Below, piece by piece: positions 30,661 through 58,633 of a stretch of DNA of 64,000 bases. The stretch's first letter is position 1, and each line of letters opens with the position of its first letter. The notes beneath the pieces are model-generated. The model searched no databases. It worked only from the letters and a program-made list of their open reading frames with translations, and was not told where the DNA came from. Origin of the DNA: Christiangramia sp. OXR-203 (lineage in GTDB: Bacteria; Bacteroidota; Bacteroidia; Flavobacteriales; Flavobacteriaceae); NCBI RefSeq assembly GCF_034372165.1, contig NZ_CP139698.1:3100001-3164000 (forward strand), given 5' to 3'. The position numbers and the translations under genes are program-made.

Positions 30661-31500
30661 TCAATTTGGGTTATTAATCATTCGATGCGGGATTTTCAAT
30701 TTTATGTTGCGTTCCCCGTTTTTCTCGTTCAGTTCCAGAATGACCCGGCGCTCATCGGATATGGAAAATTTTGGCATCACATAAACCAATCTTGAATTTG
30801 TGCCTTCTTTTATTTTAGACGGCAGTTGATGCTTGTGAAGCGTTTCCTTGTATATACGCTGCAAGCTTTTACTTTTGCCTTTTTGCCGGGTTTCTACGAA
30901 CAGATTCAAAAAATTCAAATCATAATCCAAGGATGAATTGTTTTCGATTTGAATGACAAAATAAAGTTCCTCTTTCTCAAAAGCGATGTTCTCAAGATTC
31001 AGCACGACACCTTCCTTTCGTTTCTGTTTTAAGGCCACGCGCTTCTGATTATTCAAGAGATACGAGCAAAACCGTTCGTAATATTGACGTCTGCTTAGCG
31101 GTGCTTTCGGGATGTCCGTTACCGCTGTTTCGTCCTCAGCTGCCCTATTTTCGTTCCCGATACTACTAGCTTCCTCAATGAAATAATTCAGCTTTGAAAT
31201 TTCAGCCTTATACTTTACAATATACGAAAAAATAGATCCATCTCGGTTGATTACCAGTAGATTGCTTTCCTTTCCAGGCTTGGCTTGAAGCAGACCTAAA
31301 TGCTGTTCCTTTTCTCGGTTGAATGTAAAAACGAAGTTATCCGACCCCGTGATGCCCTGACGAATGGGTTGCGGAAAAAACAGTGCAACATTCTTGGTGT
31401 CGTTGGCATAAATGGTATCGAGGGTAACGGGTTGTTGGGCATTTGCTTCCCCGAAGACGATAAGAAACATTAGAACTGTAATTGGGATATGTGATTTCAT
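30661..31500 (-). CDS. traN: Conjugative transposon protein TraN (VirB9-like)
   Basis: 279 residues with a signal peptide (ending ANAQQ, ~22). The beta-rich N-terminal half (YANDTKNVALFFPQPIRQGITGSDNFVFTFNRE) and C-terminal half (VVLNLENIAFEKEELYFVIQIENNSSLDYDLNFLNLFVETR) match the TraN/DUF4138 family. It is the outer-membrane-complex subunit of Bacteroides-type conjugation systems and is thought to act like VirB9. It follows traM by 31 bp in the operon order E-F-G-I-J-K-M-N. Confidence 0.9.
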   Translation of the reverse strand: MKSHIPITVLMFLIVFGEANAQQPVTLDTIYANDTKNVALFFPQPIRQGITGSDNFVFTFNREKEQHLGLLQAKPGKESNLLVINRDGSIFSYIVKYKAEISKLNYFIEEASSIGNENRAAEDETAVTDIPKAPLSRRQYYERFCSYLLNNQKRVALKQKRKEGVVLNLENIAFEKEELYFVIQIENNSSLDYDLNFLNLFVETRQKGKSKSLQRIYKETLHKHQLPSKIKEGTNSRLVYVMPKFSISDERRVILELNEKNGERNIKLKIPHRMINNPN

Positions 31501-31531: not shown

Positions 31532-32461
31532 TCATAGTTTTGATTTTAACAGTAATCGGTAATTATTGAGTATGGTGACCTTTACGTTCCGGTTCCTTCG
31601 TCTGAAGACCTGAGTAATGCCGCTTACTTGCGGGACGGATGGAATGTTGATGTCACCAATCACATCATCAAGCACCTCGGTGGTGACCTCGGCCCTGAAA
31701 TTGTTTTCCACATAAATCCCTTCGCTACCGTCCTGCAAATCGAAGGCCTTTAAGCTGGTGGGATGGTGATTGATGTTTTCAATGTCAATCAGGGCACGGT
31801 TGGGCTGAAAACTGATAAAGCCGAAAACAGGTGTATGTGCCGGCATCAATTTTCCATTGATAAATGCGGCTTCGGTCAACCGCATCCTCAGACGGCTATT
31901 GGCCTGAACCACTTGGTCACCATCGACGACCACGCCAATTGACTCATCGGTATTTCCAAGAAGGGTCTGTTCGTTGACCTTTGGCGCAGCGGCAAAAAAG
32001 AGCTGATGTTCCAAGCCGAACTCTTTGGCCTGTATTTTCTGTTCCCGAAATACTTCAGCAGAGTCTATCTTCGGTTCTACATTTTCGGCACGTCTTCTTC
32101 GTACCGATGTACGAGTACTTCTTTCCGAATATTTTATCCTATTGGCCTTGTAGATGCTATCGACCACCCGTTGTTTTTCCAATTGTGGCAGGTCCGGATT
32201 GTAAATGCCAGCTGAATCGATGAGCTTTTCGTCATAGATGCTGGGCGCATTTGTTTCACGCACTTCCTTTAGGTCATTAATGGCATCCAGTTTGGAATCG
32301 TATTCCTTTTGGTTCTCTTCCAGTTCGGGCACTAAGGTTTGGTTCAGGTTTTCAGTTTCTGTTTCACCCCCATCCATAAGCATTACTGAATAGGATATGA
32401 GAAATATGAAAATGACAGTCAATACTGCTGCAAATACTATTTTATTCTTTTCTACTTTCAT
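31532..32461 (-). CDS. traM: Conjugative transposon protein TraM (VirB10-like)
   Basis: 309 residues. One N-terminal membrane helix (about 9-28), a long charged linker (30-150), then a beta-barrel-type C-terminal domain (ANSRLRMRLTEAAFINGKLMPAHTPVFGFI to RRRNRNVKVTILNNYRLLL). This is the TraM family, which spans the envelope like VirB10 and links the inner-membrane ATPases to the outer-membrane channel. It overlaps traK by 20 bp, showing tight translational coupling. Confidence 0.92.
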   Translation of the reverse strand: MKVEKNKIVFAAVLTVIFIFLISYSVMLMDGGETETENLNQTLVPELEENQKEYDSKLDAINDLKEVRETNAPSIYDEKLIDSAGIYNPDLPQLEKQRVVDSIYKANRIKYSERSTRTSVRRRRAENVEPKIDSAEVFREQKIQAKEFGLEHQLFFAAAPKVNEQTLLGNTDESIGVVVDGDQVVQANSRLRMRLTEAAFINGKLMPAHTPVFGFISFQPNRALIDIENINHHPTSLKAFDLQDGSEGIYVENNFRAEVTTEVLDDVIGDINIPSVPQVSGITQVFRRRNRNVKVTILNNYRLLLKSKL

Positions 32462-34502: not shown

Positions 34503-36911
34503 TTATGTTTTAGAGGTGAATTGTTTTATAGCTTCTTCCATATTATTGGTCTTGTTATAAATGGCCATTATGGCCTCGTTTTCTTTGCCATCCGTGAGGT
34601 AAGCTGCATAGACTTCCTTCGGAACTTCCAACCGGAAGATGTTGCTTTCCTTTCCGATTTTGATGAACATTTCGGTGTACTTGCGTGGTCCGGAAAGGTT
34701 GTTCTTGATGGATTTGAGTTGGTTCAGGTCGTGACTGGATAGGTTGAGCCTTTTGACCAGTTCGCCATAGCCTTTTTCATTGTTTAGGCTGTAGATTACT
34801 TGGGTATTTTCAAGAATACTCGCAGATGTGGAATTGTTCGGCAACTGATTAATGGACTGTAGAATGATACCGATGGCACCGTTCTGCTTTCGGATGGCTT
34901 GGTAATAGAATTCAACGCTTTCAAGGACGTTGTCAAACTTCAACTGTTTGGCAAACTCATCGAATAGGATGATGCCTTTTTCGGCACGGTTGCGCCAGAT
35001 GGTTCTCTGGATAGCTGACTTAATAAGCTTTAACATTACAGACAAGATTTCCTTGTTGTCCTTTACTTCGTCAAGCTCAAAGACAATCAATCGCTTATCC
35101 TCAATCTTGTAGGTCTGGTCTTCACTAACTTCAAAAAGAAAGCTGTATAGACCATCACCGACGTACTCGGACATCACGTGCAGAAAGCTTGTGACATTGA
35201 AGTAGTCGGGATGGATTTTAAGGTTGTTCAGAATATCCTTCTGATGCCTTTCTATAAAATTGTAGAAGCCTTCGAGAGAATGATTTTCCGAAGTACTATC
35301 GTAATAATGGCGCAATATCTTTTTGACCGAAACCGATTGGGCTTTGGTCACTTTTAAATCTGAAGCGAACAGTTCAAAAAGGAATACCGATAAGTCTTCC
35401 AGACGTTCTGGTGTGAGGTCATTTTTATCACTTATAAAGAATGGATTGATACCCAAATTCTTTCCGCTTTCATAACGAAGTACGGTGTACTTTTCAGGAT
35501 AGAGCTTGGCGAATTTGGTGTAGGATCCACCGAGGTCAATTATCACCAGCCGGACACCACTTTCAAAATATTGGCGCAGTATGTTATTGGCCAAAAAGGA
35601 TTTGCCTTCGCCAGTTGGCGCAAAAATGGCAAAGTTCCGAGCCTTGATGCGCTTTTTTCGTTCGTCCCAAACATCCTTTAGAACAGGGATGTTATGTTCA
35701 CGGTCATTAAAGATGATTCCGGTATCGTCAGATTTGTAGTTGGTGTTATTGATGAAGAGACAAAGCGCGTGCTTTAAATCGGTTACATACAGATCGTTGT
35801 TTGAGAAGTTGGATGAAAAACAGCAGTAACTGTTCAGAATATAATTTTTGCGTTCTTCACCTCTTGGATAGTACGGTATGATATCGAGTTCCTTAAACTC
35901 AGTTTTGATTTTCGAGGTAATGGAATCGAGGCTCTTTTTATCTTTCGCCCAATACACTACGTTGAGATGACCACGAATGATTCGGGCATTATCGTCCGCG
36001 TTTATTTGGTCGAGGATGTGCTGGATTTTGCCAAGCACGACCTTGTTCTGCGAACCGAAATTTGAACTTTTGTTCAGTTCTTCGACTTTCTTGTCGAGCA
36101 GTTTTCGCCATTTCTGTTTGTCATCCAAATACAGTATTTGGTTGACGATATGGTTCTCATTCAACGTAAGCCCTAAGCCGTCAATAAACCCCTGATGAAA
36201 CACAAAATCGTCCGAAGTGAATTTCTCATTGGTCTTGCTACTCTGTACACTTTCGCCAAAGCACAGTTCGCTGTTGACGGCCAGGGCATTAAAATGGTTG
36301 TCGCCAATAGTGACGTTCTTTTTTTCAAGTAGAATGTCGGTATCGAATCCTTCATTGAACCCGTTGAAATAGTTGGTGGTGAGTTGATGAATCTCTTCCG
36401 CTTGCAGCGAATTGAAATGCATCTTTCGGCTATTGTTGATGAATGACACTGAATCACTGACTGCGTTAGCGAATACCTTGATATTATCATCCATCTGCTG
36501 AACAATCCCTTTGGAAACCTTTCGGAACGGATTGACATATTTAGGACTATTGAGTGCCTTGTTTTTGGTCAGGATAAAGAACAGATAACATTGGTGCTCA
36601 ATATACCCTCGGCCTTTAAAGTGTTTGTGCGTCGCTTTTTCGAGAAAGGACTCGTTGGAAAGTTGTTCTGAAGTATAGGATTGCTTCAAATAGATGTCCT
36701 GCTTATGGACGACAGTTCCAACTGGTAAAGACTTTAGAGCCTGAAACCAGGCACCGTGTATGTCCTCAAAATCTTTTTCTGAAAGTGAGTAGATTTCAGG
36801 CAATTCTCCTTTGTAGCACAACACCACATTACCATTATTGGCAAACACGATATTGTCCTGAATATCTGCTATGGGTTGATATGCCGACAGGTTCATCTTA
36901 TTCATAATCAA
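34503..36911 (-). CDS. traG: TraG-family conjugation ATPase (VirB4-like)
   Basis: 802 residues. N-terminal CagE/TrbE-like region, Walker A APTGEGKS near residue 430, a GGSYTKFAKLYPEKYTVLRYE segment, Walker B GIILFDEFAKQ near 647 and IGIILQSINQLPNN. This is TraG of Bacteroides conjugative transposons, the motor ATPase that assembles and powers the mating pore (homologue of VirB4, not of VirD4). The gene overlaps traF by 14 bp, so translation is coupled. Confidence 0.95.
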   Translation of the reverse strand: MIMNKMNLSAYQPIADIQDNIVFANNGNVVLCYKGELPEIYSLSEKDFEDIHGAWFQALKSLPVGTVVHKQDIYLKQSYTSEQLSNESFLEKATHKHFKGRGYIEHQCYLFFILTKNKALNSPKYVNPFRKVSKGIVQQMDDNIKVFANAVSDSVSFINNSRKMHFNSLQAEEIHQLTTNYFNGFNEGFDTDILLEKKNVTIGDNHFNALAVNSELCFGESVQSSKTNEKFTSDDFVFHQGFIDGLGLTLNENHIVNQILYLDDKQKWRKLLDKKVEELNKSSNFGSQNKVVLGKIQHILDQINADDNARIIRGHLNVVYWAKDKKSLDSITSKIKTEFKELDIIPYYPRGEERKNYILNSYCCFSSNFSNNDLYVTDLKHALCLFINNTNYKSDDTGIIFNDREHNIPVLKDVWDERKKRIKARNFAIFAPTGEGKSFLANNILRQYFESGVRLVIIDLGGSYTKFAKLYPEKYTVLRYESGKNLGINPFFISDKNDLTPERLEDLSVFLFELFASDLKVTKAQSVSVKKILRHYYDSTSENHSLEGFYNFIERHQKDILNNLKIHPDYFNVTSFLHVMSEYVGDGLYSFLFEVSEDQTYKIEDKRLIVFELDEVKDNKEILSVMLKLIKSAIQRTIWRNRAEKGIILFDEFAKQLKFDNVLESVEFYYQAIRKQNGAIGIILQSINQLPNNSTSASILENTQVIYSLNNEKGYGELVKRLNLSSHDLNQLKSIKNNLSGPRKYTEMFIKIGKESNIFRLEVPKEVYAAYLTDGKENEAIMAIYNKTNNMEEAIKQFTSKT

Positions 36912-38386: not shown

Positions 38387-39622
38387 TTAAAGAACTTTTG
38401 AACCCAGTATTACATTGGTTCTTTGTAAACCGACGAAGGTGTTTTTTCCTTGCTCGATGAATTTCTCTAACAACGAATCTTCGATGTTGTCAAGTTTTGA
38501 TAACAGTAAATAAGCAATAACATAATCAAATAAGAAACTGATGTAAAGCAATTCAAATTCTGAGTAAATATTCCTGTTATCGAGATTGCTATGAATATGA
38601 TAATCTCTAGCTCTAACAATCTTATTTGGGAATTCTTTCCAAACATTATCGGTAAAATCACCAATTTTCATAAAAATATCTTTATTCTCTTTGATGCGTT
38701 TGAATAGTTGATTTTTTCCTTCTTTAGAAAAGTTTTTGTAATAAGCTTCATACGCTGATATAGAATTAATAAAGCGTTTGTTATGACTAGGATGCCTGCC
38801 GATGAAGTTTTCCATCAACTTATCCAGACAAAATTTAAAGGCCTCGTTGCAGTAGGCAGCAACAAAGATTGGTAGTAAGCTAGGTTTTACTTTGCTGTAT
38901 TCCGTGTGAACAAAAGTTGAAGTAGATTTTGTGAGTTGAGTGTCGTTATAATACAGATCTTTGTCCTCACCGCAACCAAGACACTTAAAGCTAAATTTTC
39001 TAAATTTCTCTGAACGACCGAAGATTAATTGCAATACTTTTTGGAAATGGTTGTAAAACTCAATTGCAACCAAAATACTGACTGGTTCTTCTAATTCAAA
39101 TTTTATAGCACCTCGGTTAGAAATATTCAGACCTGTTTGCCTCTTCGTACTGATGTTTTGATAATGACTTATAGTGATTTTGAGATTAGTATTTTCAATC
39201 TGATATTCGTCCTTGAAAACCTTTTTATGAAGCTTATCTTCCGTATGGTCATACCAAATAGTATGATTTACCCATTTCGCAATAATATCATTTACTACAT
39301 AAAATTCCTTGATTTTGAGCGTTTTCGTGTCGATTAAGTGCCTATCACTAACAAAAGTATATTTTACTCTATAAATTCTAGTTTCAGTAATACCACTAGA
39401 TGAATGTTGTATTCTACAGTCTATAAATGTGATATACCCAAGGCCAGTTAATAATCCTAAAATCTGAGGTTCTTTATAGCTTCTTCGTTCTGAGTGTAAG
39501 TTAGTTTCTAGCCAAACTTCGTCATCATTGAATGACATTACGCAAAAATGCTTTTCATTTTCTTTTTCAGCAAGCCAGACCTCGCCATAATACTTTTTGT
39601 TCTTGTCAAAACCATCAATCAT
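38387..39622 (-). CDS. apeA: ApeA-like HEPN anti-phage protein
   Basis: 411 residues. The N-terminal ~190 residues start KKYYGEVWLAEKENEKHFCV and look like the ApeA N-terminal domain; a Cys pair (CLGCGE, ~210) follows; the C-terminal ~180 residues are all-alpha and hold the HEPN catalytic motif R-x4-H (RARDYH, near residue 341). HEPN enzymes are RNases, and ApeA is an abortive-type phage defence protein that acts alone. It lies next to the IetAS-like pair, forming a small defence island. No antitoxin-like gene is adjacent. Assigned by domain order and motif; the N-terminal match is moderate. Confidence 0.75.
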   Translation of the reverse strand: MIDGFDKNKKYYGEVWLAEKENEKHFCVMSFNDDEVWLETNLHSERRSYKEPQILGLLTGLGYITFIDCRIQHSSSGITETRIYRVKYTFVSDRHLIDTKTLKIKEFYVVNDIIAKWVNHTIWYDHTEDKLHKKVFKDEYQIENTNLKITISHYQNISTKRQTGLNISNRGAIKFELEEPVSILVAIEFYNHFQKVLQLIFGRSEKFRKFSFKCLGCGEDKDLYYNDTQLTKSTSTFVHTEYSKVKPSLLPIFVAAYCNEAFKFCLDKLMENFIGRHPSHNKRFINSISAYEAYYKNFSKEGKNQLFKRIKENKDIFMKIGDFTDNVWKEFPNKIVRARDYHIHSNLDNRNIYSEFELLYISFLFDYVIAYLLLSKLDNIEDSLLEKFIEQGKNTFVGLQRTNVILGSKVL

Positions 39623-44886: not shown

Positions 44887-44926
44887 AAGGACTATCAGAG
44901 GTTTATAATTTTTAATGATAGTCCTT
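44887..44926 (-). promoter_or_regulatory. Perfect 11-bp leader hairpin before the HTH operon
   Basis: AAGGACTATCA (44887-44897) and TGATAGTCCTT (44916-44926) are perfect complements with an 18-nt AT-rich loop, 22 nt upstream of the start codon. Could be an attenuator/regulatory stem in the mRNA or a protein site; no T-run follows on the minus strand. Confidence 0.55.
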
Positions 44927-44985
44927 AACCCGATTTGACTTTCGTTCTACAAATTTGATATGGATTATCGGATTTTCTTCCCCAG

Positions 44986-45002
44986 TACGACCGTACTACG
45001 GT
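44986..45002. promoter_or_regulatory. CCGTA/TACGG operator cluster A (upstream of HTH operon)
   Basis: Palindrome ACCGTA-C-TACGGT (44990-45002), with a third partial half-site TACGA at 44986, exactly 11 bp before TACGG at 44997. Confidence 0.6.
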
Positions 45003-45117
45003 GAAAATTTAACATCTTTAATTCTGGTATGATTTGGTGCTATTTGACTGTATTGATTCCGAAATTTTCACTCAAAACGAACTGAATTTTATGGGAACGA
45101 GGTTAAAAATGAAATCA

Positions 45118-45140
45118 CCGTAGGTCAACCGTACTACGGT
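45118..45140. promoter_or_regulatory. CCGTA/TACGG operator cluster B
   Basis: CCGTA at 45118, then the same 13-bp palindrome ACCGTA-C-TACGGT at 45128-45140; the two CCGTA copies are exactly 11 bp apart. A T8 run follows on the plus strand, so it could also act as a terminator there, but no plus-strand gene ends here. The rest of the 321-bp gap between the HTH gene and rteC shows nothing else I recognise. Confidence 0.6.
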
Positions 45141-45186
45141 TTTTTTTAATATTTTGATTTGATGGGAAGATAGCTGGAACAAGCCG

Positions 45187-46020
45187 CTACTTTTCACTTT
45201 TATCCATTTCAGAAATAAGGGAAGTGGTCAACTCATCAAGAAACAGGGTTCGGCTTTTTTTCCTGTTTTTGATGTCCTGATAGGTTTTGTAGATGTCTTT
45301 TGGCTCAACATCGAAAATCTGGCTTAAATAATCTGAAATTTTAACAATACTCAGACTGTTTTTAGAACCGAGACCTTTAGCGTGAAGCGCATAAATTAAT
45401 TCCACATAATCTGTATTGCTAAAAGGCCACTGCAATCGTTTTATGGGGTGTTTTTTCCCATTGAGTGATTTCTTTAGTTGAAAACGTCTTTCATCTAAAT
45501 ACTTCAACAGTTTTTGATAAGCCCTATACTTACCTAATAGCATATCCCGGGGAGTACAAAATTCAGGGTCTTGAAAGTAAAATTTTGAAGTGGTGATATG
45601 ATAACTATCCAGATAGTCCCTTGTAAAATATTCCTTATCAAAATGAGTGTGTCCAGCTTCGATATAACGACCAAAATCAAGATTGTACAGAAAGAACCGG
45701 TTAATTTTGTTGACTTTCTTTTTGATGGTTTTCAGCTGGCTATGTTTGTCAGCTTTTGGAAATTGAAGTTCAAAAGAATGAATCTCAGAAAAATGAATAA
45801 GTTCAATAAGCGGTACCTGTTTCGTGTGTTTGAAAAATCTTATTTCTTTTGCCATCGCATCAAAGCCCTCTCTAAGAACCTGTTTTTTGAGTTTGCTTAA
45901 AAGGTTACGGCACACCTCGATGGAACGATATGCCCTCTCCAATATTGAGTTATTTTCAGAGGCTATTTCATTCAGTTGTGTTGTTAAGCTTTCCGATAGT
46001 ATTTCGAGTTTCATCAGCAA
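45187..46020 (-). CDS. rteC: RteC-family regulator
   Basis: 277 residues, all-alpha in the first half, with the RteC family pattern (LKKQVLREGFDAMAKEIRFFKHTKQVPLIELIHFSEIHSFELQFP ... KKVNKINRFFLYNLDFGRYIEAGHTHFDKEYF) and a C-terminal winged-helix-like part (NTDYVELIYALHAKGLGS ... LSQIFDVEPKDIYKTYQDIKNRKKSRTLFLDELTTSL). In CTnDOT, RteC turns on excision genes by binding inverted repeats upstream of them. The RteA/RteB two-component pair and tetQ are absent here, so its own control must differ. Phased CCGTA/TACGG sites lie upstream of this gene and upstream of the HTH operon. Confidence 0.92.
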   Translation of the reverse strand: MLMKLEILSESLTTQLNEIASENNSILERAYRSIEVCRNLLSKLKKQVLREGFDAMAKEIRFFKHTKQVPLIELIHFSEIHSFELQFPKADKHSQLKTIKKKVNKINRFFLYNLDFGRYIEAGHTHFDKEYFTRDYLDSYHITTSKFYFQDPEFCTPRDMLLGKYRAYQKLLKYLDERRFQLKKSLNGKKHPIKRLQWPFSNTDYVELIYALHAKGLGSKNSLSIVKISDYLSQIFDVEPKDIYKTYQDIKNRKKSRTLFLDELTTSLISEMDKSEK

Positions 46021-46187
46021 CCGCCTTGGAGTGAGACAACATAATTCGAGATTCTAGTGGGTTGGTAATTGTTGTTGAAGTCCCATAACAATCAGTAGTG
46101 TGATGCTTAAAAGACTTTAACGAATACTAAAATCATTCAAAATCCAGTAAAATTAACGAAAAGGGGTAGCTTTCTAAGCTTTAAAAG

Positions 46188-46225
46188 CCGTATTTCATTA
46201 CGGATTAATCCGTATTCTAATACGG
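46188..46225. promoter_or_regulatory. Phased array of four CCGTA/TACGG half-sites upstream of rteC
   Basis: CCGTA 46188, TACGG 46199, CCGTA 46210, TACGG 46221: alternating orientation at exact 11-bp steps, about 168 bp before the rteC start. The same half-sites occur at clusters A and B before the HTH operon. Confidence 0.7.
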
Positions 46226-57418: not shown

Positions 57419-58633
57419 TTAAAAATTCACTACACTTTCAAGAGCGTCATCAGCATCTTTGTGAATAAAATTTGCTTGGTAGTTGATCGTGGTTTTCAAA
57501 TCGCTATGTCGATATAATTTTTGAAGCATAAGCGGGTGGATGCTATCGCCTGCAATATTGCCAAAGGAATGTCTGGCAATATGCATCGTTACTTTTTTCT
57601 GAATGCTTGCTCTTTTCGTAATTTTTTTTAGGTGGTCGTTGAATTTTTTGTTTGCTACCTTTTTCTTGCGGTAAATATCTTTCGCATCAGTTAAGTCTGC
57701 CTTTTTCATTTCTGGAAAGACAAAATCATCATCATTTACTCTGTCATCAATATATTGCAATAATATTCTTTCAACCTTAGCTGGAATCTTTAAGGACAAT
57801 AACTTTGAGTTCTTGCTCATCCTGTAATGCAATCGCCCATCATAAATTTGGGACCACCTTATGAATAAGACGTCTGAAACTCTCATTCCTGCAAAATAGA
57901 AGCTAAACAACCAAATGTTCAAAGAATGCCTTTCCATATCAGTAAGCTCAGAAACATTTTCCAAAGCTTTTATCTCTTTACCAGATAGCCCTGTTTTGTT
58001 GGTTTCTGGAAACTTGATTTTAAATTTGCCCTTGCCAAAGGGATATATTTCTTTACTCACAACCTTGTCGCGAATAGCTCTGTTAAACAATAACCTTATT
58101 AAAACCATCACATTCATAGCTGTGGTTTCAGTTAATGAACAAGAACCTTTTAAATGAATTTTGAACTTTTTGAGAAATCGCTCATCAATTTCTTGGAAAG
58201 TAAGATGCCGGCCAGAGCTATACTTTTCTATATAACTCACCCAAGCTGAATCTGTAGAGTGGCGATTGATTTTCTTTTCAGCCTCTAAGGCTTCAAGATG
58301 CTCGTCAGCAAAATCAAAAAAAGTTAAGCTCGAAGTTGGCTTATATATTTCTTTTTTGATTTGTCGAGCAGTAGCAGCTTTATTATCAGTCTGTAGTGCA
58401 ATAAGCCCTTTTCTGGCTTCGGATAGTTTGAAAGCTATCAAATTGTTCAGGCTTTCAGCTTCAGAATGCGATTTTTTTACCTTTAGATTTTTAGAGTCCC
58501 AATCCTCTAATTCAATATAATGGCCTATATGTTTGTAAGTTGAACGACGGTCTTTGGTAATCCTAATTGCAAGCGGATAAAGCCCTTTTGCGTTAGGCTT
58601 TTTGCGAAGAATTATTTTTGCACTCGTTGACAT
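57419..58633 (-). CDS. int: Tyrosine recombinase/integrase of the ICE
   Basis: 404 residues in the Bacteroidota layout: N-terminal arm-binding domain (ITKDRRSTYKHIGHYIELEDWDSKNLKVKK, to ~100), SAM-like core-binding domain (FFDFADEHLEALEAEKKINRHSTDSAWVSYIEKYSSGRHLTFQEIDERFLKKF, ~105-215), and catalytic domain with Arg in FYFAGMRVSD (~250), Lys in the beta-hairpin, HIARHSFGN (HxxR, ~353), RHSDLKTT (His) and the nucleophile Tyr in TTINYQ (~384). It catalyses crossover at AGACTTAGGAT in the tRNA-Leu anticodon loop. It is transcribed away from the right end, ~210 bp from the attR core. Confidence 0.95.
   Translation of the reverse strand: MSTSAKIILRKKPNAKGLYPLAIRITKDRRSTYKHIGHYIELEDWDSKNLKVKKSHSEAESLNNLIAFKLSEARKGLIALQTDNKAATARQIKKEIYKPTSSLTFFDFADEHLEALEAEKKINRHSTDSAWVSYIEKYSSGRHLTFQEIDERFLKKFKIHLKGSCSLTETTAMNVMVLIRLLFNRAIRDKVVSKEIYPFGKGKFKIKFPETNKTGLSGKEIKALENVSELTDMERHSLNIWLFSFYFAGMRVSDVLFIRWSQIYDGRLHYRMSKNSKLLSLKIPAKVERILLQYIDDRVNDDDFVFPEMKKADLTDAKDIYRKKKVANKKFNDHLKKITKRASIQKKVTMHIARHSFGNIAGDSIHPLMLQKLYRHSDLKTTINYQANFIHKDADDALESVVNF

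Follow-up and report, generated by a model that had tools for sequence, protein, structure and literature searches.

Two operators in one conjugative-element cascade: a proposed path from a membrane LuxR-type protein through RteC to an HTH/replication operon

Half-sites of the form CCGTA/TACGG lie at two places in the window, the 64,000-nucleotide stretch of Christiangramia sp. OXR-203 DNA analysed here: between a luxR-like gene and rteC, and before an operon of HTH and replication genes. Do the two sets answer to one protein or to two? The preliminary description placed all of them in one class as RteC sites, through which RteC would activate the HTH operon and regulate its own gene. We compared the locus with related loci and found that the two sets differ in geometry and follow different proteins.

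Repeats of two geometries around rteC

The window contains an integrative conjugative element (ICE), with domain matches to TraG, TraM, DUF4138 and a tyrosine integrase inside it (Table 1). RteC scored 204 bits against PF09357, for which the gathering cut-off is 25.3, and no sequence relative of it was found in the PDB. The model of its C-terminal domain had a pLDDT of 93.6, and the best matches of this domain to DNA-binding folds were weak (MarR and DtxR, Z 3.3-3.4, Foldseek E >2); the full RteC model matched helical bundles only (such as Translin, with Z no higher than 6.6).

Table 1 Features of the rteC region and the surrounding element, in window coordinates
Feature	Position	Strand	Remarks
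DUF4138	30661-31500		conjugation gene
TraM	31532-32461		conjugation gene
TraG	34503-36911		conjugation gene
Third operon gene, 246 aa	43178..43918	-	P-loop ATPase, weakly DnaC/DnaI-like
Second operon gene, 250 aa	43824..44576	-	no Pfam match
HTH_17 gene, 94 aa	44581..44865	-	first gene of the predicted RteC-controlled operon
Leader hairpin	44887..44926	-	11-bp perfect arms AAGGACTATCA/TGATAGTCCTT, then TTCTTTT; before the HTH start codon
Putative -7 box of the HTH-operon promoter	44950..44957	-	CAAATTTG, then conserved TAGAACGAAAGTCAAAT
Proximal predicted RteC operator	44980..45001	-	palindrome CCGTAGTACGG at 44991-45001 plus third half-site
Distal predicted RteC operator	45118..45139	-	CCGTA 45129-45133 and TACGG 45135-45139, inverted
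rteC	45187..46020	-	PF09357, E 2.8e-60
Putative rteC promoter	46148..46177	-	TTA 46175-46177, N19, -7 box TAATTTTA 46148-46155
Proximal array dimer	46188..46203	-	CCGTAATGAAATACGG on the - strand; 22 bp from the distal dimer
Distal array dimer	46210..46225	-	CCGTATTAGAATACGG on the - strand, CCGTA-N6-TACGG; predicted LuxR site
luxR-like gene, 315 aa	46263..47210	-	C-terminal GerE domain, residues 256-308; directly upstream of rteC
Tyrosine integrase (Phage_integrase)	57419-58633		domain match

The four half-sites upstream of rteC, described earlier as alternating in orientation at exact 11-bp steps, were confirmed at 46188(+), 46199(-), 46210(+) and 46221(-). They form inverted pairs with an N6 spacer, and the whole array (46188-46225) sits between the luxR-like gene and rteC. 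The sites before the HTH operon pair inverted half-sites at a step of 6 bp (N1) and have a direct repeat at 11 bp, so the single class of the preliminary description had merged two geometries, an N6 array of step 11 and an N1 palindrome of step 6 with an 11-bp direct repeat. CCGTA-N6-TACGG was observed twice in the window against 0.02 expected by chance, and CCGTA-N-TACGG twice against 0.00; across the 3.4-Mb genome the former was confined to the array before rteC, with two sites, and the latter to the pair upstream of the HTH operon. The array and the HTH-operon repeats are real and not a chance occurrence.

RNA or transcription-terminator hairpins after luxR would also fit the palindromes, which have 8-bp arms and score as terminator-like on the + strand, a reading that we consider scarcely credible, because the hits lie on the strand opposite luxR, rteC and the HTH operon and the half-sites are kept in phase with the promoter. 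It was rejected on the ground that the matches are on the wrong strand.

The array between luxR and rteC

The protein encoded upstream of rteC carries a GerE domain (PF00196, E 2.5e-14) and, in its N-terminal part, five hydrophobic segments in a simple Kyte-Doolittle scan. GerE was the only domain found among its Pfam matches, with no autoinducer-binding domain. LuxR-type proteins bind the lux box, ACCTGTA-N6-TACAGGT. The array resembles it in the inner GTA-N6-TAC, in being an inverted dimer site near the target promoter and in its association with a GerE domain, but differs in its CCGTA half-site, in having two dimers in tandem and in a LuxR that lacks an autoinducer-binding domain match. The LuxR-like protein is predicted to be the activator of rteC.

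The array also appears to abut an rteC promoter of the Bacteroidetes type. In an alignment of 32 dereplicated loci, most had TAnnTT at +33 to +38, counted from the final array half-site, and a weaker TTG-like element occupied +11 to +13. The proximal array dimer stops 10 bp short of this promoter's -33 position. Hits of a sigma-70 promoter scan were no more frequent than in shuffles, an outcome that is expected for Bacteroidetes promoters.

Of the 397 Flavobacteriaceae genomes sampled, 17 carry a full array, in every case between luxR and rteC, and more carry variants; the listed counts for the reversed-pattern control contained none. The window LuxR shares only about 34% identity with the LuxR of L006 and of most other array loci. 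In 33 of 33 dereplicated loci whose LuxR recognition helix reads TVSKH, TVTKH or TASKH, the array scored 9-10 of 10 as a match to CCGTA-N6-TACGG, whereas all six loci with a TVRKH helix scored 5-6, which is the shuffle level, and had in common a different array of the form TGTGTATAAAATTCACAT...TACRC-N6-TACRC. Residues E284 and S288 of the window LuxR separate these two array classes.

The comparison set comprised 202 non-duplicate RteC loci from whole genomes and named genome contigs. Among the 73 loci with CCGTA RteC operators, 65 have luxR, of which 57 show the exact array pair, and eight lack luxR, of which none shows it; in several of the eight luxR loci that lack the exact pair the arrays were variant, not absent. 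Sequence inspection of two of the loci without luxR (L131 and L150) showed an integrase-like gene upstream instead. Absence of the half-sites from related ICEs that keep rteC, named in the preliminary description as grounds for refuting its reading, was therefore seen for the array and was not seen for the HTH-operon sites.

We then examined co-variation by partial Mantel tests on 38 dereplicated loci, with the best CCGTA-N6-TACGG match taken for each array, as the 11-step array picker mis-registers some variant arrays. The array was correlated with LuxR given RteC (r=0.55, p=0.0005) and did not follow RteC given LuxR (r=0.13, p=0.13); these permutation p-values, like those for the operators below, are optimistic, because the loci share descent. 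Natural swaps were found in both directions. CCGTA arrays are present in L182, L183 and L189, yet their RteC operators read TCCGG, and in L166 and L172, yet the RteC operators there read TCGGG. L146 shows the reverse: its RteC belongs to the window's clade (62% identical to that of L006) and its RteC operators are CCGTA, but its LuxR shares 78% identity with the L160 protein, and its array is of the L160 or TVRKH type. These swaps indicate that array and operators evolve independently of each other, each alongside its own protein.

That RteC reads all the sites, controlling both the HTH operon and itself, has in its favour that the CCGTA half-site occurs in both places in the window's clade and that both kinds of site adjoin the gene or the target of RteC. 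Given the different geometries, the eight luxR-less loci, the loss of coupling once LuxR is controlled for and the CCGTA arrays beside RteC proteins with other operators, we regard it as very unlikely, and autoregulation through the array found no support, as the array tracks LuxR, not RteC. The natural dissociations and the partial Mantel results led us to reject this single-protein reading; RteC is most likely not the protein that reads the array. The luxR module may travel with the array simply by linkage.

Candidate RteC operators and the HTH/replication operon

The preliminary description had also reported two clusters before the HTH operon, each a 13-bp palindrome with one more half-site 11 bp away. 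The palindromes (ACCGTACTACGGT, at 44990-45002 and 45128-45140) and the half-site at 45118 were borne out. The half-site placed at 44986 was not: it reads TACGA, with one mismatch, and L006 and L009 have TCGTT there, on the other strand, so it is not kept. In the distal operator the third half-site is a clear CCGTA at 45118-45122, 11 bp from 45129. In the proximal operator a multi-clade alignment placed it at 44980-44984, where a degenerate TGGGG (- strand) lies 11 bp from 44991-44995 in the same orientation and adjoins the -33 position of the HTH-operon promoter. Outside the window's clade, the third half-site at +11 matched on average 2.82 of 5 positions, compared with about 1 at most other offsets.

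The distal copy sits just after rteC. Downstream of rteC, a promoter element with AACGAAAGT was found in 131 of the 202 loci, and the proximal palindrome precedes it by about 50 nt. The palindrome varies by RteC clade, reading CCGTAnTACGG in the window's clade and CCCAACTTGGG, TCGTAACTACGA, TTCGTAATTACGAA, ACCGGAGTCCGGT and others elsewhere; operators were read by fixed register after the automatic palindrome picker had taken a conserved neighbour, GTTAAATTTTAAC, in some loci. Within a locus, the distal and proximal copies agreed at 10.96 of 13 positions; when the two came from loci whose RteC proteins are distant, the figure was 8.90. The operator tracked RteC given LuxR (partial r=0.557, p=0.0005). 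Since the operator varies with the RteC clade and keeps a fixed distance to a conserved promoter in many clades, we think it very probable that RteC uses the HTH-operon sites as its operators, in line with the RteC control of this operon proposed earlier.

A residual correlation of the operator with LuxR given RteC (r=0.23, p=0.04) appears to leave some coupling. Together with the shared CCGTA letters, it would fit an array read by both proteins, in which LuxR activates rteC and clade-A RteC also binds there and represses or boosts its own gene. We hold this to be improbable: the array geometry is unlike that of the RteC operator, and the reading is impossible where the RteC half-site differs (L182, L166) or the array differs (L146). 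Keeping LuxR as the reader of the array and RteC as the reader of the HTH-operon sites, we treat the CCGTA letters common to the array and the clade-A RteC operator as coincidence or convergence. A broader version, in which Flavobacteriaceae ICEs have exchangeable input modules, with a membrane-embedded LuxR sensor and its own matching operator swapped before rteC irrespective of RteC and its operators, and the clade-A RteC half-site convergent and open to cross-talk, seems to us possible but doubtful.

OmpR/PhoB-type sites are 11-bp direct repeats. The second and third RteC half-sites likewise form an 11-bp direct repeat adjoining the -33 position, but the RteC operator has an extra inverted half-site, and neither sequence similarity nor firm fold similarity of RteC to OmpR was found. 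No clear -33 box is visible in the HTH-operon promoter where the proximal third half-site ends, from which we infer that RteC activates the HTH operon.

Between this promoter and the HTH gene, the leader hairpin covaries across 14 diverse loci (10 pairs, five with changes on both sides), and 89% of its cells are paired there, against 32-57% when the pairing is slid. It looks like a conserved attenuator.

Several observations concern the surroundings of these sites. Proximal and distal operators often differ in L166, L172, L182, L183 and L189 (CCCGACTCGGG vs CCGTAGTCGGG, for example), which may reflect graded binding. Two more RteC genes are present in the same genome (G000:C1:1968046-1968699 and 1668521-1669162), and the operator type of one of these loci, L012, is TCGTAACTACGA; with this second operator type, RteC systems of different DNA specificity appear to coexist in one cell. 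An IetA/IetS anti-phage pair (39653-43108; PADLOC E 8e-75 and 8e-38) follows the HTH/replication operon on the same strand after 69 bp and is possibly co-transcribed with it. Beside it, an ApeA-like protein with a HEPN domain (38387-39622; PF18862, PF18739) is likely encoded by another defence gene.

A proposed regulatory cascade

Taken together, we consider it probable that the ICE uses two operators in one cascade, leading from a membrane LuxR to rteC and from RteC to the HTH/replication operon. The membrane-spanning LuxR-type protein would bind the two CCGTA-N6-TACGG sites as two dimers, with the site centres preceding the predicted rteC start point by about 54 and 76 bp, and would activate rteC. 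RteC would in turn bind the distal and proximal operators and then activate the HTH/replication operon.

In CTnDOT of Bacteroides, rteC is switched on by RteA/RteB, and its product controls the genes for excision and transfer (PMC1976400; PMC10865816). The proposed cascade has the same order of an upstream regulator, rteC and RteC-controlled genes, and RteC here is also a PF09357 protein; the parallel is functional, and the first regulator differs in kind. RteA/RteB genes are absent directly upstream of rteC, where the neighbours are GerE/LuxR and a GNAT acetyltransferase; the adjacent gene encodes a single membrane-spanning LuxR/GerE protein, and the controlled operon begins with HTH_17 and replication-like genes. 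Our literature search turned up no publication that describes RteC next to LuxR in an ICE of flavobacteria.

If correct, the switch of these widespread conjugative elements would be a one-component membrane sensor and not the tetracycline-linked RteA/RteB pair, and the leader attenuator, if true, would add a control step after RteC. The comparisons offer testable operators for LuxR and for several RteC clades, with E284 and S288 predicted to set the half-site. The natural swaps make the specificity of RteC, a little-studied regulator family, directly testable.
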